A DNA stretch of 54,664 bases from Gammaproteobacteria bacterium (lineage in GTDB: Bacteria; Pseudomonadota; Gammaproteobacteria; DSM-19610), in NCBI GenBank assembly GCA_030621785.1, contig JAUXGZ010000002.1:1-54664 (forward strand), in the 5' to 3' direction. This document shows positions 6,142 through 46,035 of this stretch, piece after piece. The first letter of the stretch is position 1. Every line of letters begins with the position of its first letter. Under the pieces are notes generated by a model. That model was given only the letters and a program-made list of their open reading frames with translations. It made no database searches and was not told the origin of the DNA. The translations under genes and the position numbers were made by a program.

Positions 6142-8988
6142 TCAGGCGAAACGCCGTAGCTCTCCCTGGCCCTCGACATTCTCCACACAACGACTGCACA
6201 GTTCCGGATGCTGTTCACTGCTGCCTACCTCTTCGCGGTGATGCCAGCAGCGAACACACTTCGTATGACTCGAAGGCGCCAGCTGGATAGCGGCTACAGC
6301 ACCGTTACATTCCACTTCGGCAAGACCATCAGGTCGATCCTCGAGCGGGTGCAGACGCGCGTACGAAGTAATCAACACGAAACGCAACTCGCCCTCCAGT
6401 CGTGACAGTTTCTCCAGCAGGTCGGCATCGCAATACAGATCCACTTCCGCATCCAGCGACGAACCAATCTCTCCCGCCGCGCGCAGTTTTTCCAGCTCCT
6501 TGCCGACAGCCTCGCGCACCACCAGCACCTCCTGCCAGTAATCCATGCTGAAACGCTCCCCGTCAGACCGGTCAGCGGGAAACATTTCCGGCAAGCTGTA
6601 CCAGCTTTCGAGGAACACCGAATCACCGTGTTCACCGGGCAGGTTCTTCCAGATCTCCTCGGCCGTAAAGCTGAGAACCGGTGCCAGCCAGCGCACCAGC
6701 GCCTCGGCAATCAGGTACATGGCCGTTTGCGTGGAACGCCGTGCGTCACTTTCCGCCTGCGTGGTGTACTGGTGGTCCTTTATCACATCGAGGTAAAAAC
6801 CACCCAGGTCGGTGGCGCAGAAATTATGCACCTTCTGGTAGATGTGATGGAACTCGTAGCTTTCGTAGGCACGGGTTAGCTCGTGCTGTAATTCGCGGGC
6901 TCGCTCGACCGCCCAGCGATCGAGTTCCAGCATCTGTTCCGGCGCAAGCCGGTGTTGCCCGGGCTCGAAACCATTGAGATTGGCGAGCAGAAAGCGTGCC
7001 GTATTACGCATGCGACGGTAAGCGTCCGCAGTACGTTTGAGAATTTCATCAGAAACACCCATCTCATTGCGGTAATCGGTCGCAGCCACCCACAAACGCA
7101 GAATATCGGCGCCGAGATGGTTCACCACCTTCTGCGGAGCCACCACGTTGCCTTTGGACTTGGACATTTTCTGTCCTTTCGCATCGACGGTAAAACCGTG
7201 CGTCAGCACCTGACGATAAGGGGCCGTACCGTGCATGGCTACCGAAGTAAGCAGCGAGGACTGGAACCAGCCACGGTGCTGATCGGAGCCCTCAAGATAC
7301 AGGTCCGCCGGCACCCGCAGTTCCTCGCGCCGCTCGAGCACGCACTGGTGGCTGGTGCCCGAGTCAAACCAGACATCCAGGGTATCCTGCACCTTGTCGT
7401 ACTGCTCTGCATCCGCGCCCAGCAGATCGCTCGCATCCAGTTCAAACCAGGCGTCGATGCCATGACGCTCGACACGCAGTGCGATTTCCTCCATCAGTAG
7501 CGCGGTATCCGGGTGTAACTCACCGCTCTCGCGGTGCACGAACAGCGCGATCGGTGCGCCCCAGGTACGCTGGCGGGAAATGCACCAGTCGGGCCGCCCT
7601 TCGACCATACCCTCGATGCGCGCTTGCCCCCAGTCCGGCATCCAGTGAACGGTCTGGATGGCTTCGAGTGCGGCACTGCGCAGGCCATTCTGCTCCATGC
7701 TGATAAACCATTGTGGCGTGGCACGGAAAATAATCGGTGTCTTATGCCGCCAGCAATGTGGATAGCTGTGTCGCAAGGCTTCGTCGTGTATCAGGGCACC
7801 ACGGGCTTTCAGCACCTCCAGTACATCGCCATTGGCCGAGAACACGTGCTTGCCGGCGAACAGTTCGGTCCCGTCGACGAAAACACCGTTGGGTCCCACC
7901 GGGTTATCTACCGGAATCCCGTATTTCTGTCCGACTACATAATCCTCCTGACCATGTCCCGGCGCAGTATGTACCGCACCGGTACCAGCTTCAGTCGTCA
8001 CATGATCGCCCAGGATAACCGGCACCTCCCGTGCGTAGAAAGGATGCGCCAGCTTGAGGCCTTCCAGTTCTGCCCCCTTGCAATAGGCAACCACCTGGTA
8101 GTGCTCGCAGCCATAGCGCAGCATGACATCCTTCAGCAGGGATTCGGCTACCAGCACTCGTTCCGTGCCCTGCCCGAGGTCGGCCTGCACCACTGCGTAT
8201 TCAAGCTCGGGGTTAAGCGCCACCGCGCGATTGGCCGGCAGCGTCCAGGGCGTCGTCGTCCAGATGATTACCGATACGGGCCCGTTTCCCTTGTGACCCT
8301 CGGCATGGTGACAGCGTGCCAGCAGCGCTTCTTCGTCCAGCACCCGGAAGCGCACATCGATTGCCGGCGAAGTCTTGTCCTCGTATTCGACCTCGGCTTC
8401 TGCCAGGGCGGATCCGCAGTCGGTACACCAGTGCACCGGCTTGTAGCCCTTGGCCAGGTGACCCGCGGCGATAATACGCGCCAGGGCGCGGATAATATCC
8501 GCCTCGAAACAGTAGTCCATAGTCAGGTAGGGATGCTGCCAGTCACCCAGCACGCCCAGACGAATAAAATCCTTGCGCTGCCCATCGACCTGCTTGCGAG
8601 CGTAGTCCCGACACTTGCTGCGGAAGGTGCTCGCGTCCACCTTGCGTCCGACCTTGCCGACTTTTTTCTCGACATTCAGTTCGATCGGCAAGCCGTGACA
8701 GTCCCAGCCCGGCACAAAGGGTGAATCGAAACCGGCCAGCGTGCGGCTTTTTACAATAATGTCCTTGAGAATCTTGTTGACTGCGTGACCGATATGAATG
8801 TCGCCATTGGCGTACGGCGGACCATCGTGCAACAGGAAGCGCGGCCGGCCCTTGCCGGTCTCGCGCATCCTGCCGTACAGATCGATGCTATCCCAGTACT
8901 TGAGCATTTCGGGCTCGCGTCCCGCCAGGTTCGCTTTCATGGGGAACCTGGTACTGGGCAGATTCAGGGTATTCTTGTAGTCACTCAC
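6142..8988 (-). CDS. ileS: Isoleucyl-tRNA synthetase
   Basis: This class I synthetase attaches isoleucine to tRNA-Ile and edits valine. The HIGH motif is in [13 protein letters not shown] near the N-terminus, the editing (CP1) domain contains [11 protein letters not shown], and the KMSKS loop is [10 protein letters not shown]. The C-terminal zinc-binding module reads [12 protein letters not shown] followed by CSRC. The GTG at 8988 ([11 protein letters not shown]) is chosen because it matches the start of E. coli and Pseudomonas IleS; a frame extension to ATG 9033 lacks a ribosome-binding site. With this start the gene overlaps the ribF stop by 8 nt. Length about 948 residues, normal for the bacterial zinc-containing form. 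Confidence 0.97.
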
Positions 8989-9925
8989 TTGGGCACTCGC
9001 TTGTTGTGAAAAACCGCCTGGCCTGTTCGGCATCAAGCTGTATCTGCTGTTTCAGAAGTTCGAAGGAAGCAAATTTCCTTTCGTCCCGTAGTTTGCTGCA
9101 AAACTCCACATCCAGGTAGCAGCCGTAAATGTCCGCGTCGAAATCGAACAGATGAACTTCCAGCAGCTGGAAACTGCCGTCCACCGTGGGCCGCGTGCCG
9201 ACATTGGCAACGCCGTTTACGGGCTGATCGCCGATACCGGCAACCCGCACTGCGAACACGCCGCTCAACGGTGACACGGCACGGTGCAAATGTATATTGG
9301 CCGTGTGAAAACCAATCGTTCTGCCACGTTGCTGACCAGGCGCCACCCGCCCGATGATTCGGTAGGGACGCCCCAGCAGACAGGCAACCGTCTGCATGTC
9401 TCCGGCCGCCAGTGCCTGGCGAATCCTGGTACTGCTTACCCGTTCACCACATTCGGTACAGGTCACAGTGCCGGCAACCTCGAAGCCGTGACACTCTCCC
9501 GCTCGCTGCAGGAAGGCAAAGTCACCTTCGCGTCCCTTGCCGAAGCGAAAATCATCGCCAACCACCAGGTAGCGTACATCCAGCCCTTCTATCAAGATGC
9601 GCTGGACAAAGTCAGCAGCAGTCAGGCCGGCCAGCCGATGATCGAAATGCAGGCAAAGTACCTGGTCGACATCCAGTGTTTCCAGCAACGCCAGCTTGTC
9701 GCGCAGGCGTTGCAGGCGGGCAGGTGCGGTGGCCGGAGAAAAATATTCCTGCGGCGTAGGCTCGAAAGTGACCACCGACGTGACCAGCTGCTGCGCCGCC
9801 GCGTGCCGGTGCAATTGCCGCAGCACCGCCTGATGCCCCCGGTGCAGACCGTCGAAGTTCCCGATGGTCACGGCACCACCCTGATGGGCGGCATGCAGAT
9901 TGTGCAGGCCTCGTATTACTCTCAT
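8981..9925 (-). CDS. ribF: Bifunctional riboflavin kinase / FAD synthetase
   Basis: The N-terminal half is the FMN adenylyltransferase with [10 protein letters not shown] (HxGH-like nucleotide site) and [12 protein letters not shown]; the C-terminal half is riboflavin kinase with [13 protein letters not shown] and the catalytic Glu in [10 protein letters not shown]. Together they convert riboflavin to FMN and FAD in the cytoplasm. The ATG at 9925 is used; a TTG just upstream is in frame. Length 314 residues, as usual. It lies between murJ and ileS in the conserved order. FAD is the substrate of ApbE-type flavinyl transferases such as the candidate at 50007. Confidence 0.96.
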
Positions 9926-43115: not shown

Positions 43116-43442
43116 ATGAAAACAAGCAATCTGATCCGGCTGGCACTACTGGCCGCAGCCACCACCGTGTCTGCAGCCGCAACCGCTGCCGGCGACGCGG
43201 AGGCAGGCAAAAGCAAGGCATTTACCTGTATGGGCTGCCACGGCGTTCCCGGTTACAACAATGTCTATCCGACCTACCACGTTCCCCGACTGGGTGGTCA
43301 GCACGCCAAATACCTGGTATCGGCCCTGGAAGCCTACAAGACCGGACAACGTACGCATGCGACCATGCAGGCCCAGGCCATCACTCTGAACGAACAGGAT
43401 ATGCAGGATATTGCTGCGTACTTCGAACAGATCGGCAAGTAA
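43116..43442 (+). CDS. Class I c-type cytochrome (small, periplasmic)
   Basis: A 108-residue protein with a signal peptide (about 1-24) and one haem site CMGCH. GQHAKYLVSALEAYKTGQRTH and the Met in HATMQAQA are typical of cytochrome c553/c4-type domains, in which Met is the second axial ligand. It carries electrons in the periplasm. A similar gene follows after 29 nt, so the pair probably arose by duplication. Confidence 0.92.
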   Translation: MKTSNLIRLALLAAATTVSAAATAAGDAEAGKSKAFTCMGCHGVPGYNNVYPTYHVPRLGGQHAKYLVSALEAYKTGQRTHATMQAQAITLNEQDMQDIAAYFEQIGK

Positions 43443-43471
43443 ATCCAGTGACCCCAGTGAGAGACAAAATA

Positions 43472-43822
43472 ATGATGAAAATCCTGAATATAATCCTGTT
43501 CGTGGCAGTGGCCGTCACATCGGCCACCGGCTTTGCCGGTGGAGACCCCTCCGCAGGCAAGGAAATTGCCGCAAAAACCTGCCAGACCTGCCACGGCGCC
43601 GACGGCAACAGCACTGACCCGCAGTATCCACGACTGGCAGGGCAGTACGCCGACTACCTGGAACGGGCACTGGAGGAATACCAGACGGGCAAACGTACCA
43701 ATCCGATTATGACCGGTTTCGCGGCCGGCCTTTCTGAACACGACATCAAGAACGTTGCCGCCTGGTTCTCGAGCCAGAGTGGCTTAAACACCCCCGTCGA
43801 GCCTCGCACAGTCTCCAGGTAA
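43472..43822 (+). CDS. Class I c-type cytochrome (second of a pair)
   Basis: A 116-residue protein with a signal peptide (about 1-22) and the haem motif CQTCHGADGN. PRLAGQYADYLERALEEYQTG and NPIMTGFAAGL give the same layout as its neighbour, with Met as likely axial ligand. Two tandem ATGs start it. The operon ends at the inverted repeat at 43865. Confidence 0.92.
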   Translation: MMKILNIILFVAVAVTSATGFAGGDPSAGKEIAAKTCQTCHGADGNSTDPQYPRLAGQYADYLERALEEYQTGKRTNPIMTGFAAGLSEHDIKNVAAWFSSQSGLNTPVEPRTVSR

Positions 43823-43864
43823 CCCCGCTTACCCTTACCACCGGGCGTACGAGGAAACATCGGG

Positions 43865-43902
43865 CAAAAAGGAACAAAAATTGATCTTTTTGTTCCTTTT
43901 TG
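43865..43902. terminator. Perfect 16-bp inverted repeat after the cytochrome genes
   Basis: CAAAAAGGAACAAAAA (43865-43880) and its exact complement (43887-43902) flank TTGATC. The stem ends in T-runs, so it can act as a terminator for the cytochrome operon. A minority possibility is a regulatory site, since the merR -35 box begins only two bases later. Confidence 0.75.
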
Positions 43903-43903
43903 C

Positions 43904-43950
43904 TTGACATTCCACGCGAGCCTGCGACACTTCAGTGATTCACGAATCAC
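43904..43950 (+). promoter_or_regulatory. Promoter and palindrome upstream of the merR-like gene
   Basis: A consensus -35 TTGACA lies at 43904-43909; the -10 is poor (GACACT near 43926). Downstream, GTGATTC-AC-GAATCAC (43935-43950) is a perfect 7+7 palindrome near the expected transcript start, a candidate operator for autoregulation. Confidence 0.55.
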
Positions 43951-43966: not shown

Positions 43967-44410
43967 GTGACACGAAGCTCATTCAGTCGACAACAGGTAG
44001 CTGCCATCACCGGCCTCAGTACGCGTCAACTCGGGTACTGGCGAAAAACCGGCCTGGTGGTTCCGCAGACCTTTACTCCGGGCGGACATGCTCGCTACTC
44101 CTTTACGGATCTGATCGCCCTGCGTGCAGCCAAACGCCTGCTCGAAGCAAATGTATCCTTGCAGCGTGTACGCAAATGTCTGCAATCGCTTACTCGTTTT
44201 CTGCCCACAATAGAACAACCACTGGTGGAATTATCGCTGGTGGTTACCGGCGATGTCGTGCTCGTGTTTCACGACCAGCAGACATTCGATGCACTGACCG
44301 GCCAACAATGGGTATTTCCGGTAGCCGAACTGGTTGCAGAGGTAGAACGGTTGCAGAAATCACGACCGGCACCGGAACAGGGTGAACTGTTTCTGGCTGA
44401 AAATTGCTGA
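43967..44410 (+). CDS. MerR-family transcriptional regulator
   Basis: A 147-residue protein. The N-terminal winged helix reads FSRQQVAAITGLSTRQLGYWRKTGLVVP and continues GGHARYSFTDLIALRAAKRLLEANVSLQRVRK, the MerR DNA-binding domain. The C-terminal domain (about 80-140) has no metal-binding cysteines typical of MerR or CueR, so it responds to another signal or partner. GTG at 43967 is chosen; a GTG two codons earlier is equally possible. It begins an apparent operon with the three genes at 44520-46035, 109 nt later. Confidence 0.85.
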   Translation: MTRSSFSRQQVAAITGLSTRQLGYWRKTGLVVPQTFTPGGHARYSFTDLIALRAAKRLLEANVSLQRVRKCLQSLTRFLPTIEQPLVELSLVVTGDVVLVFHDQQTFDALTGQQWVFPVAELVAEVERLQKSRPAPEQGELFLAENC

Positions 44411-44519
44411 CAACAGAGAACAGGGCGGTGAAACGGTGGAAACGTTCACCTTTCCAGGAAGGCGACGGACCGCACCGGAAACGGGCCCGCACAAAGCTGC
44501 GGCCCAGGAGGATAACACC

Positions 44520-44813
44520 ATGCACGCGGCAAATATAAAACCCCGGCTACAACTGGTTGTGCTGACGTTCGATTGCATCGACTGCGAACGACTGCAACTG
44601 GCCGGTGATTTCAACGACTGGGTACCCGATCGCAATATCGAAACCCGAAAAATCAACGGACGCTGGCAAAAGATCTTTACCGCTGAACCCGGCATATACG
44701 AATATCGCCTGATTGTTGACGGGAAATGGCAACAGGACCCGGGAAATACCGCCGAAATACCCAACGATAAAGGCACCATCAATTCCCTGTTGCAAGTACC
44801 GGTACAACTCTGA
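44520..44813 (+). CDS. Stand-alone CBM48 (glycogen-binding, AMPK-type) domain protein
   Basis: A 97-residue protein consisting of one E-set/CBM48 domain: LQLAGDFNDWVPDR, GRWQKIFTAEPGIYEYRLIVDGKW and DPGNTAEIPNDKG. This matches the glycogen-binding domain of AMPK beta subunits and branching enzymes (GDFN.W, YEYRF.VDG.W..DP). No enzyme domain is attached. The ATG has AGGAGG 8 nt upstream. It overlaps the next gene by one base (TGATG), implying a shared function. It may bind alpha-glucan or serve as a protein-interaction module. Confidence 0.85.
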   Translation: MHAANIKPRLQLVVLTFDCIDCERLQLAGDFNDWVPDRNIETRKINGRWQKIFTAEPGIYEYRLIVDGKWQQDPGNTAEIPNDKGTINSLLQVPVQL

Positions 44814-45502
44814 TGAGCACCCACCTGAACCCCATGCAACCGCAACAAACAGACTCCGCCTCGCCCACCGGAACAGCTCGCATTGGTCTGACCGACAAGC
44901 CGCAAACCAGATCGACATACCGGGCAGATGGCAAACTAATCCCGTTCCTGCTGGACTCAGCGGAGCAGAGCTGGATTACCCACGACCTTTGCAAGCTGCT
45001 TACCCGAAGAAACCACAGCAGTATTCTGTGCCACGTTGACGAGCTGGCATCCACCACGGAAGCACAAATTTTCGAACACCTTGCCAGGCAGGGAGCCAGT
45101 GGCTATGAATACCGTCTGCTACCGGTAACTTCGCCGCAATTGATCAAGCGACTCCGTCTCAGCCACGTGGTACTTCTGGTGCCCGCAAACCTGGATGCTA
45201 TCTGCCTCGCCTATCAGCGAATCAAGTTGCTGGCCGAGGAAACCACCCCGGAAATCGGCATCGTCATGGTGGGCCCGCGCGACCAGCACGCAGCCTGGCG
45301 TTATTTTCGCAAGCTCGCGGTTGGAACGCTGCGCTACCTGGATATTCCGCTGCTGAACCTCGGTTTCCTGCCGAATCAGATTACGCCGCAATGCGGACCC
45401 GCCGATCATCATCGTGATAACTTTCTGACCCGCATCAGTGAACGTTTGTTACGCAGTGAATTTCACACCGGCAATCTTGAGGTGTACAGAAAGTCCGGAT
45501 GA
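44813..45502 (+). CDS. MinD/FleN-like protein without a P-loop (putative)
   Basis: A 229-residue protein of uncertain family. The region about 110-190 (HVVLLVPANLDAICLAYQRIKLLAEE, then IGIVMVGP and AVGTLRYLDIPLLNLGFLPN) looks like the C-terminal half of MinD/FleN ATPases, where a strand, a helix 'AY..IK.L', another strand and 'L.yLG.iP' occur in that order. No Walker A motif is present, so it would not bind ATP normally. Residues 1-40 are polar and probably disordered. It is translationally coupled to the CBM48 gene before it and to the next gene (four-base overlap). Confidence 0.5.
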   Translation: MSTHLNPMQPQQTDSASPTGTARIGLTDKPQTRSTYRADGKLIPFLLDSAEQSWITHDLCKLLTRRNHSSILCHVDELASTTEAQIFEHLARQGASGYEYRLLPVTSPQLIKRLRLSHVVLLVPANLDAICLAYQRIKLLAEETTPEIGIVMVGPRDQHAAWRYFRKLAVGTLRYLDIPLLNLGFLPNQITPQCGPADHHRDNFLTRISERLLRSEFHTGNLEVYRKSG

Positions 45503-46035
45503 AGTCCAGCGTCACCTCTTCCGACCCGGGCGACCTCGAAGAACTGCGCACTCTTCTTATCAACTCTGCGGAAAAACTGGCAGGGCCGGGGGCCTTCATC
45601 CTCAAACCCGGACTCCCCGGTGACGGTAGCCCGATCCTGATGCACAACGCTGAACACCAACCGGTGGTGATCAGCTTCGACCCGGGAAACGGCGAGACCG
45701 CGCTGATTAACGGACTTCGGGCAGTCGAACGCCTGACCGCCACCCGGCCAGAACCACAGCCCGCAAGACTGGTCGTGGTCAGCCAAACCCTGCTACCGGC
45801 ATCAACTACGATCCTGGCGAACTGCTCCCGACTACAGCTGTACGTTGTCAGGCGACAGGAGATTAACGATACAACAAGGCTATGGCTGGACCGCGTACAG
45901 ACGGACACACCGGATGAATCCGCAGCTGAGCAGCCACTGCCAGAGGACAGGCCAACACTGGCGAAGTCTTCAATCGACGCAGACAGCCTGCCGGCACTCA
46001 GCGAAGAGGAAGCCAGCTACTTCAGGCAGCTCTAA
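45499..46035 (+). CDS. Unknown protein, possible degenerate PD-(D/E)XK (NucS-like) fold
   Basis: A 178-residue protein, third in the tightly overlapped operon. Residues 25-130 read SPILMHNAEHQPVVISFDPG, then ALINGLRAVERL and ARLVVVSQTLLPAS, resembling the strand-turn-strand core of NucS/DUF91-type nucleases (DILA.D..G..V.IE.K, then a helix, then a strand). The catalytic Asp and ExK residues are replaced (HN, SFD), so it should be inactive. The last 45 residues are acidic and likely disordered. The fold is a tentative reading; function unknown. Confidence 0.45.
   Translation: MKSSVTSSDPGDLEELRTLLINSAEKLAGPGAFILKPGLPGDGSPILMHNAEHQPVVISFDPGNGETALINGLRAVERLTATRPEPQPARLVVVSQTLLPASTTILANCSRLQLYVVRRQEINDTTRLWLDRVQTDTPDESAAEQPLPEDRPTLAKSSIDADSLPALSEEEASYFRQL

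Follow-up and report, generated by a model that had tools for sequence, protein, structure and literature searches.

The window analysed here, 54,664 nucleotides of a contig from a Gammaproteobacteria bacterium (JAUXGZ010000002.1, assembly GCA_030621785.1), contains a MerR-family gene followed by three overlapping genes, which encode a stand-alone CBM48 module, an FlhG/FleN-like protein without Walker A motif that we call MinL, and a degenerate NucS/EndoMS-like protein that we call NucL (Table 1). Comparison with related genomes indicates that this locus is the reduced, motor-less form of a larger system, the ATPase domain having apparently been lost here. That the full system is of the ParA type and acts on glycogen, the window holding its motor-less remainder, is a reading that we regard as evenly poised.

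In 10 of the 16 loci of the Thiogranum clade (genomes G000 to G017, G000 being the window genome), and in G041 and G083, the CBM48 forms the last ~90 residues of a protein of 363–393 residues that starts with a complete ParA ATPase. The two domains are thus fused in frame in 12 of these 18 close loci. The ParA domain is absent from the window and from five relatives (G003, G004, G009, G010 and G017), which encode a CBM48 of 97 residues alone. When the ParA domain served as query, copies of 62–100% identity came up solely in genomes having the fusion. The best matches in the six ParA-less genomes reached 38–40% identity (38% in the window genome), and in the three genomes read this match was the chromosomal ParA adjoining ParB. 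Transfer of the domain to another place in the genome is therefore not supported, the assemblies of the window genome and of G004 being 75% and 71% complete. An assembly gap was ruled out because the domain is absent inside single contigs, including those of G009, a complete genome in one contig, and of G004, also in one contig. A tree built on HrpA, DsrE, MerR, CBM48 and the MinL core, hence partly on data from the system itself, placed the ParA-less G009, G003 and G004 each beside ParA-bearing genomes with support of 96, 99 and 95, the deep nodes being weak (28–69). These positions, together with the fused outgroups, make at least three losses of the ParA domain likely.

The fusion extends well beyond the clade. 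Genome contigs were scanned with the CBM48 alignment and the best 80 of 148 relatives were kept; ParA-CBM48 fusions were found in 70 of the 80 fetched loci, the remainder being four clade loci and six stand-alone CBM48 open reading frames (ORFs). The fusions occur under seven group names (Gammaproteobacteria, Deltaproteobacteria, Myxococcales, Nitrospirae, Omnitrophota, Rokubacteria and Planctomycetota/Phycisphaerae), which are those given in the titles of the records, these being metagenome-assembled genomes. The ATPase is Soj-like throughout: its ParA domain aligns along Soj to the C-terminal region of the latter, and is followed by a linker and the CBM48. The deviant Walker A of the ParA/MinD kind, KGG[VC]GK[ST]T, is present in 67 of the 70 fused ORFs, the exceptions being L163 (KGGCAKT), L155 (KGGCGKTI) and L124 (cut by the contig end), and is absent from the window genome along with the domain. 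The initial annotation had pictured a complex of dead folds; since the 12 close loci join the CBM48 to a ParA ATPase with an intact P-loop, the set is better read as a ParA-type system that lost its motor in the window than as dead folds only. For the cell pole, which that annotation had named as a possible site, evidence emerged neither in favour nor to the contrary.

The fused clade genes appear to contain an internal start. In all ten, GAGG stands at ribosome-binding distance from an in-frame ATG that corresponds to Met1 of the stand-alone CBM48. A Shine-Dalgarno-like word precedes 10/10 of these ATGs versus 0/47 of the other internal Met codons, and the Glu at this site is encoded by GAG in 10/10 genes, the Glu codons of the fused clade ORFs being 92 GAG versus 138 GAA. 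Because of this word and of the codon bias at the CBM48 ATG, the fused clade genes probably make two products, of which the window would retain the short one. The internal start is lacking in the G041 and G083 fusions.

The CBM48 of the window is of the AMPK-beta type. Besides the Pfam match to AMPK1_CBM, a profile search recovered AMPK beta-1 structures at 4.2e-6, and Pfam CBM_48 itself gave only an E value of 0.22. Among 99 aligned rows (clade duplicates included), W34 is kept in 99, W70 in 99, N88 in 96 and R/K63 in 98; these residues, which we take to be glucan contacts as in AMPK beta-1, are all kept in the window (W34, R63, W70, N88). Its K84 is unique, the other rows being mostly hydrophobic at this position. 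Two further arrangements were seen. A deltaproteobacterial record (L161) carries a stand-alone CBM48 gene (6890-7204) and then a separate ParA-CBM48 gene (8127-9554). Four Verrucomicrobia records (L166, L175, L178, L179) have a small stand-alone CBM48, probably of a different family, with no ParA match nearby; the one in L179 shares its end with an overlapping sigma-factor-like ORF.

We searched with each of the three proteins in 95 genomes (the window's own, 16 of the same genus, 3 of the same family and 75 of the same class). The trio was present in its own genome, in 14 of the 16 same-genus genomes, in one of the three others of the family (G017) and in G041; of the three proteins, only CBM48 and MinL were found in G083. 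It was not found in the same-genus G006 and G013 (79% and 82% complete) nor in the family members G018 and G019; weak single matches, to NucL in G065 (8.5e-4, with an internal stop) and to CBM48 in G071 (3.3e-4), were left out. The CBM48 and MinL genes share one base in 16/16 clade loci, and the MinL and NucL genes four bases in 13/16, the window having both overlaps. As the set is present in different genera and phyla, with the overlaps kept in the clade, it is not a chance assembly. The initial annotation had placed the same genes and overlaps behind the MerR gene, at these coordinates, and had suggested an undescribed system; the layout proved correct, and the set is indeed conserved, the trio occurring in other genomes, and apparently undescribed. 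A wider survey of 276 genomes of the window genome's class gave the system CBM48 at E < 1e-30 in 14 genomes of 8 families, three weak matches (G071, G170, G204) being left out. Among nine class-level loci searched by profile, five (G134, G181, G238, G262, G296) have MerR, MinL and NucL together and G205 has MinL only.

The MinL profile (45 rows) matches FlhG/FleN chains at 1.9e-11 to 5e-10, starting behind the P-loop, and the AlphaFold2 model of MinL (predicted local distance difference test, pLDDT, 85.6) has FlhG/FleN proteins as its Foldseek ranks 1 to 9, with moderate TM-scores of 0.54–0.64 (query length). None of the 45 rows has a Walker A, the KGG in L132 being a chance occurrence without GK[ST]; MinL is therefore a homologue, not a member ATPase, of the MinD/FlhG/FleN family. 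Its disordered N terminus often bears a motif resembling the N terminus of ParB, which reads RLAEISHHFLSE in gammaproteobacterial copies, KRLGRGLEDISHYFIS in those of Nitrospirae and KLGKGLEDISYLFLS in those of Omnitrophota. The Nitrospirae start KRLGRGLEDISHYF compares with KRGLGRGLDALL in the clade's own ParB, which begins MAAKKRGLGRGLDALLG in the three clade genomes read. PMC12462528 describes the N-terminal motif of ParB as binding the ParA dimer and stimulating hydrolysis, and PMC10241942 states that partners of ParA/MinD ATPases generally use an N-terminal peptide.

A regular expression for the motif, written post hoc, matched 44 of the 69 genes adjoining fusions versus 19 of 549 other ORFs. 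The form LG[RK]GL[ED]DIS opens the next gene in 9 of 10 loci from Nitrospirae, Omnitrophota and Rokubacteria, all chosen for having the motif. Among the close loci the motif is kept in 12/12 ParA-bearing versus 2/6 ParA-less ones (Fisher 0.0049, uncorrected for phylogeny), with the variants RMEKIRDRFLS in G007 and G016 and RLASISDSYLS in G008. It is degenerate in the other four ParA-less loci, including the window, where it would lie in the first ~40 MinL residues (44813-44932). A perfect correlation between motif and ParA was not borne out, as two of the six ParA-less loci retain the motif. In one Rokubacteria record (L155:1588-2226), the motif, LGRGLEDISHLFQS, is joined to NucL directly, without an intervening FlhG-like domain.

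NucL resembles the nuclease domain of EndoMS/NucS. Its AlphaFold2 model (pLDDT 85.8) matched EndoMS/NucS 5gke in Foldseek at 5.7e-5, and all three matches with E <= 0.001 were EndoMS/NucS. An Omnitrophota copy gave weak sequence matches as well (NCBIfam NucS 5.5e-5, NucS_C 0.086), and the NucL profile (36 rows) found no sequence match in the PDB. NucL thus has a PD-(D/E)XK fold without the D...E-x-K that we take to be catalytic in NucS/EndoMS: it reads SFD or NFD at the expected E-x-K strand (alignment, by eye), and the early Asp of NucS is kept solely in the Omnitrophota and Rokubacteria copies. All 36 rows share L16, L167 and E171 (numbered as in the window). The C-terminal tail LSxEE..YF.QL (46000-46032 in the window) is kept across phyla behind a variable linker and looks like a docking peptide; the window NucL lacks an 11-column stretch present in the other clade rows. 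MinL and NucL of the window have no Pfam match up to E 1, and no NCBIfam model matches either of them or the window CBM48. The families proposed by the initial annotation, namely a glucan-binding module, a MinD/FleN-like fold lacking the ATP site and a PD-(D/E)XK-like one lacking the catalytic residues, are those in which profile and fold searches placed the three proteins, the last two not falling among unrelated ones.

The ratio of nonsynonymous to synonymous differences (pN/pS) between the window and G012 is 0.24 for CBM48, 0.33 for the MinL core and 0.55 for NucL, and in pairs with a ParA-less member it ranges from 0.14 to 0.58 for the MinL core and from 0.29 to 0.55 for NucL. Because the values against G012 stay below one, some motor-free function probably remains in the window genome.

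Evidence for a link with glycogen, which had been guessed at before, came from neighbours and from gene co-occurrence. GH57 enzymes are found beside the system in seven of eight Omnitrophota loci, no GH57 gene being shown in the eighth, L182. In five of them ParA-CBM48, MinL, NucL, Cu-oxidase_4, DUF4912 and GH57 lie on one strand; these five are 66–92% alike, L173 and L180 being near duplicates (ParA-CBM48 92% identical). In L160 and L162 the GH57 gene lies just upstream of the system. The GH57 of L180, the sole copy tested, has the C-terminal domain of branching enzymes. In the survey of 276 class genomes, GlgA was above the cut-off in 156, that is in 14/14 system genomes versus 142/262 others (one-sided Fisher p 2.6e-4); within one genus, G262 has both the system and GlgA, and G165 has neither. 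The control PhaC, present in 53 of the 276 genomes, showed no link (2/14 system genomes versus 51/262 others), and polyhydroxybutyrate granules were rejected as the cargo. In four gammaproteobacterial loci (L139, L140, L143, L145), genes for a GH100 invertase, an ABC ATPase and an HDOD protein form a conserved cluster upstream of the system (Pfam, one member each).

The architecture, the families, the loss of the ATPase domain, the internal start and the motif are established by comparison of sequences; we infer glycogen as the ligand, the contact of the peptide with ParA, the stimulation of the ATPase and the positioning. The full system would consist of MerR, ParA-CBM48, MinL and NucL. In ParA-CBM48, a P-loop ATPase of the Soj type, the C-terminal CBM48 would bind an alpha-glucan, most likely glycogen. 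Its partner would be MinL, which would dock on the ParA dimer by the ParB-like N-terminal peptide and trigger ATP hydrolysis, and NucL, a dead NucS-like fold co-made with MinL, would be the other member of this partner complex. In its ATP state, ParA-CBM48 would tether glycogen particles to the nucleoid until MinL/NucL set them free, and the particles would in this way be spread, positioned or shared at division; the internal start of the fused gene would also yield free CBM48. In the window genome, where the ATPase domain appears deleted, free CBM48, MinL and NucL may form a motor-less glycogen-associated complex under purifying selection, the docking peptide having decayed. The wider proposal falls a little short of an even chance: that several phyla have a ParA-driven machine positioning or partitioning glycogen particles, the first for a storage polysaccharide, that the internal start gives a motor-free product and that several lineages, including that of the window, run on this form alone.

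Several observations weigh against this mechanism. The trio persists without ParA, and part of its function therefore needs no motor. ParA-CBM48 occurs without MerR, MinL or NucL, as searched by profile, in three of the nine class-level loci (G099, G100, G300). The regular expression misses 25 of 69 loci, including 7/8 from Planctomycetes, 2/2 from Myxococcales and 4/6 from Deltaproteobacteria, some of the misses carrying variants of the motif by eye. The ParA-less G004 and G009 keep the motif, G009 being the closest relative of the ParA-bearing G011. The link with glycogen is statistical, and the 14 system genomes come from just 8 families; when only genomes of 2.2–3.9 Mb are counted, approximately and by hand, GlgA is found in 14/14 versus about 106/159 (p 0.005). 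No glycogen gene was seen among the annotated neighbours in the Thiogranum clade; the scan of neighbours outside Omnitrophota covered 70 of 117 listed ORFs, with 25 of 100 families shown, and does not establish the absence of glycogen genes there. Finally, a cargo-type domain on the ATPase itself is unlike the ParA systems known to us.

The closeness of MinL to FlhG/FleN, for which the solved complexes of FleN include, by their titles, the activator FleQ, would also suit an ATP switch. ParA-CBM48 would then read the glycogen status and MinL, in the manner of FleN, would restrain an enzyme or a transcription factor, whether MerR or some other; the MerR gene at the head of the clade loci, the AMPK-beta type of the CBM48 and the survival of the free trio without motor would all agree with this. 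However, a Soj-type ATPase with a ParB-like motif in its partner points to a ParA cycle, and MerR is not a fixed part of the system since no profile match was found in the Omnitrophota, Planctomycetes and Rokubacteria loci, so that we consider such a regulator unlikely. Alternatively, CBM48, MinL and NucL may be a scaffold or tether without transport that recruits a partner to glycogen, comparable to the plant proteins whose CBM48 directs enzymes to starch granules, ParA only switching its assembly and the window scaffold being the working remainder. The stand-alone CBM48 in 6 of the 18 close loci, with translational overlap and coding constraint kept, and the resemblance of the conserved NucL tail to a docking peptide fit this scheme; alone it does not explain the fusion to an ATPase in most fetched loci, and we judge it quite improbable.

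The trio of the window might also be a decaying relic without present function, the ATPase and the ParA-docking motif being gone, NucL lacking its 11 columns and CBM48 having a Lys at a mostly hydrophobic position. Yet the reading frames, the start overlaps and the dyad upstream of the MerR gene are intact, the MinL core retains the most conserved block of the clade, the pN/pS values of the MinL core and NucL are as given above, and the five other ParA-less genomes also retain all three genes; a relic is thus very improbable. A defence system was rejected: PADLOC gave a generic match for MerR (mad1, 1e-7) and weak matches for ParA (PDC-M28B), with no match on CBM48, MinL or NucL of the window. 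One Omnitrophota NucL (L180:2969-3670) does match the PADLOC candidate models PDC-S11 and PDC-S18 (7.6e-8), possibly as another PD-(D/E)XK relative.

The MerR helix-turn-helix gene is 67–79% identical in 15 clade relatives and 57% in G041 and G083 (tblastn). The initial annotation had assigned it a palindromic operator. The dyad is real, with perfect arms in the window, and a similar one stands at the same place in the 15 other clade genomes (imperfect by eye in G001, G002, G008, G010 and G014); binding by MerR, and autoregulation, are possible roles that we infer. By eye, none was recognised upstream of MerR in G041 and G083. The dyad directly abuts the 5′ side of the −35 box, and TTGAC(A/T) right behind it is conserved in the clade. 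Classical MerR promoters have the dyad within the spacer between −35 and −10, whereas here it lies upstream of −35. A role as bidirectional terminator only was ruled out, as the dyad is A/T-rich and is kept without a preceding cytochrome gene (G010, G012). The MerR gene is preceded by a DsrE-family gene and by a pair of cytochrome c genes, the latter in tandem (43116-43822) and not at that place in G010 and G012. Downstream of NucL are a MiaE-like gene and a lipid-binding (polyketide cyclase/START-like) gene. Most of these flanking genes reappear around the set in the clade (neighbourhoods of 17 relatives and G065).

Table 1. Positions of the predicted elements of the locus in the window
Element	Position	Strand	Details
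Inverted repeat, candidate operator of the MerR gene	43864..43903		perfect 17-bp arms, 6-base loop
Likely promoter: TTGACA, 16-base spacer, GACACT	43904..43931	+	−10 read by eye
MerR-family regulator	43967..44410	+	147 residues, GTG start; Pfam MerR_1 3.3e-15
Spacer, place of the ParA domain and linker in 10/16 clade genomes	44411..44519	+	domain apparently deleted in the window
Shine-Dalgarno AGGAGG of the stand-alone CBM48 gene	44506..44511	+	sequence comparison
Stand-alone CBM48/AMPK-beta-type module	44520..44813	+	97 residues; Pfam AMPK1_CBM 9.6e-10
MinL, FlhG/FleN-like domain without Walker A	44813..45502	+	229 residues; profile match FlhG 1.9e-11
NucL, degenerate NucS/EndoMS-like PD-(D/E)XK domain	45499..46035	+	178 residues; Foldseek 5gke 5.7e-5

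The known cargoes of ParA/MinD ATPases include chromosomes, plasmids, carboxysomes, chemotaxis arrays and flagella. If the proposed mechanism holds, a ParA that binds glucan would extend these cargoes to a storage polysaccharide, with a bearing on how carbon reserves are shared between daughters, and would point to dedicated machinery in some bacteria for the placement or tethering of glycogen stores. That the ATPase domain was lost repeatedly, and that the putative docking peptide decayed in four of six cases, would be a natural experiment pointing to the contacting residues. Through its internal start, a gene with two functions could readily become one with a single function, and MinL and NucL would be further enzyme folds retained after catalysis was lost. 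No paper on ParA with CBM48 or on ParA-based positioning of glycogen was found in the open-licence PMC literature, partly among top listings, and the word glycogen does not occur in the available part of PMC10241942.

By anatomy the full system would be a ParA/MinD positioning system; the window locus alone, without ATPase, would not be one. The full system shares with ParABS (Soj/Spo0J) a Soj-type Walker ATPase, its identity to the chromosomal ParA within a genome being 38–40%, and a likeness between the N-terminal motifs of ParB and MinL, but its ATPase bears a glucan-binding domain and its partner is a P-loop-less FlhG-like protein, not the ParB clamp. The CBM48 keeps the Trp/Trp/Asn of the AMPK beta subunit and, like the plant CBM48 proteins PTST, which reportedly target enzymes to starch granules, may bring other proteins to a storage glucan; it differs from these in being bacterial and in belonging to a ParA-type machine, either as a fused domain or as the product of a neighbouring gene. 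MinL has the fold and the sequence profile of FlhG/FleN, with the differences that it lacks Walker A, has an extra ParB-like N terminus and has no flagellar genes among its annotated neighbours. NucL has the fold of the C-terminal nuclease domain of EndoMS/NucS, with weak sequence matches of the Omnitrophota copy, but lacks E-x-K and the whole of the NucS N-terminal domain. With the orphan ParA/MinD systems of the carboxysome (McdA), chemotaxis (ParC) and the flagellum (FlhG), as outlined in PMC10241942, the system would have in common a P-loop ATPase with a small dedicated partner carrying a candidate N-terminal peptide; it would differ from them in its presumed glycogen cargo, the cargo-type domain on the ATPase, a pseudo-ATPase as the partner and a third protein with the NucS fold.

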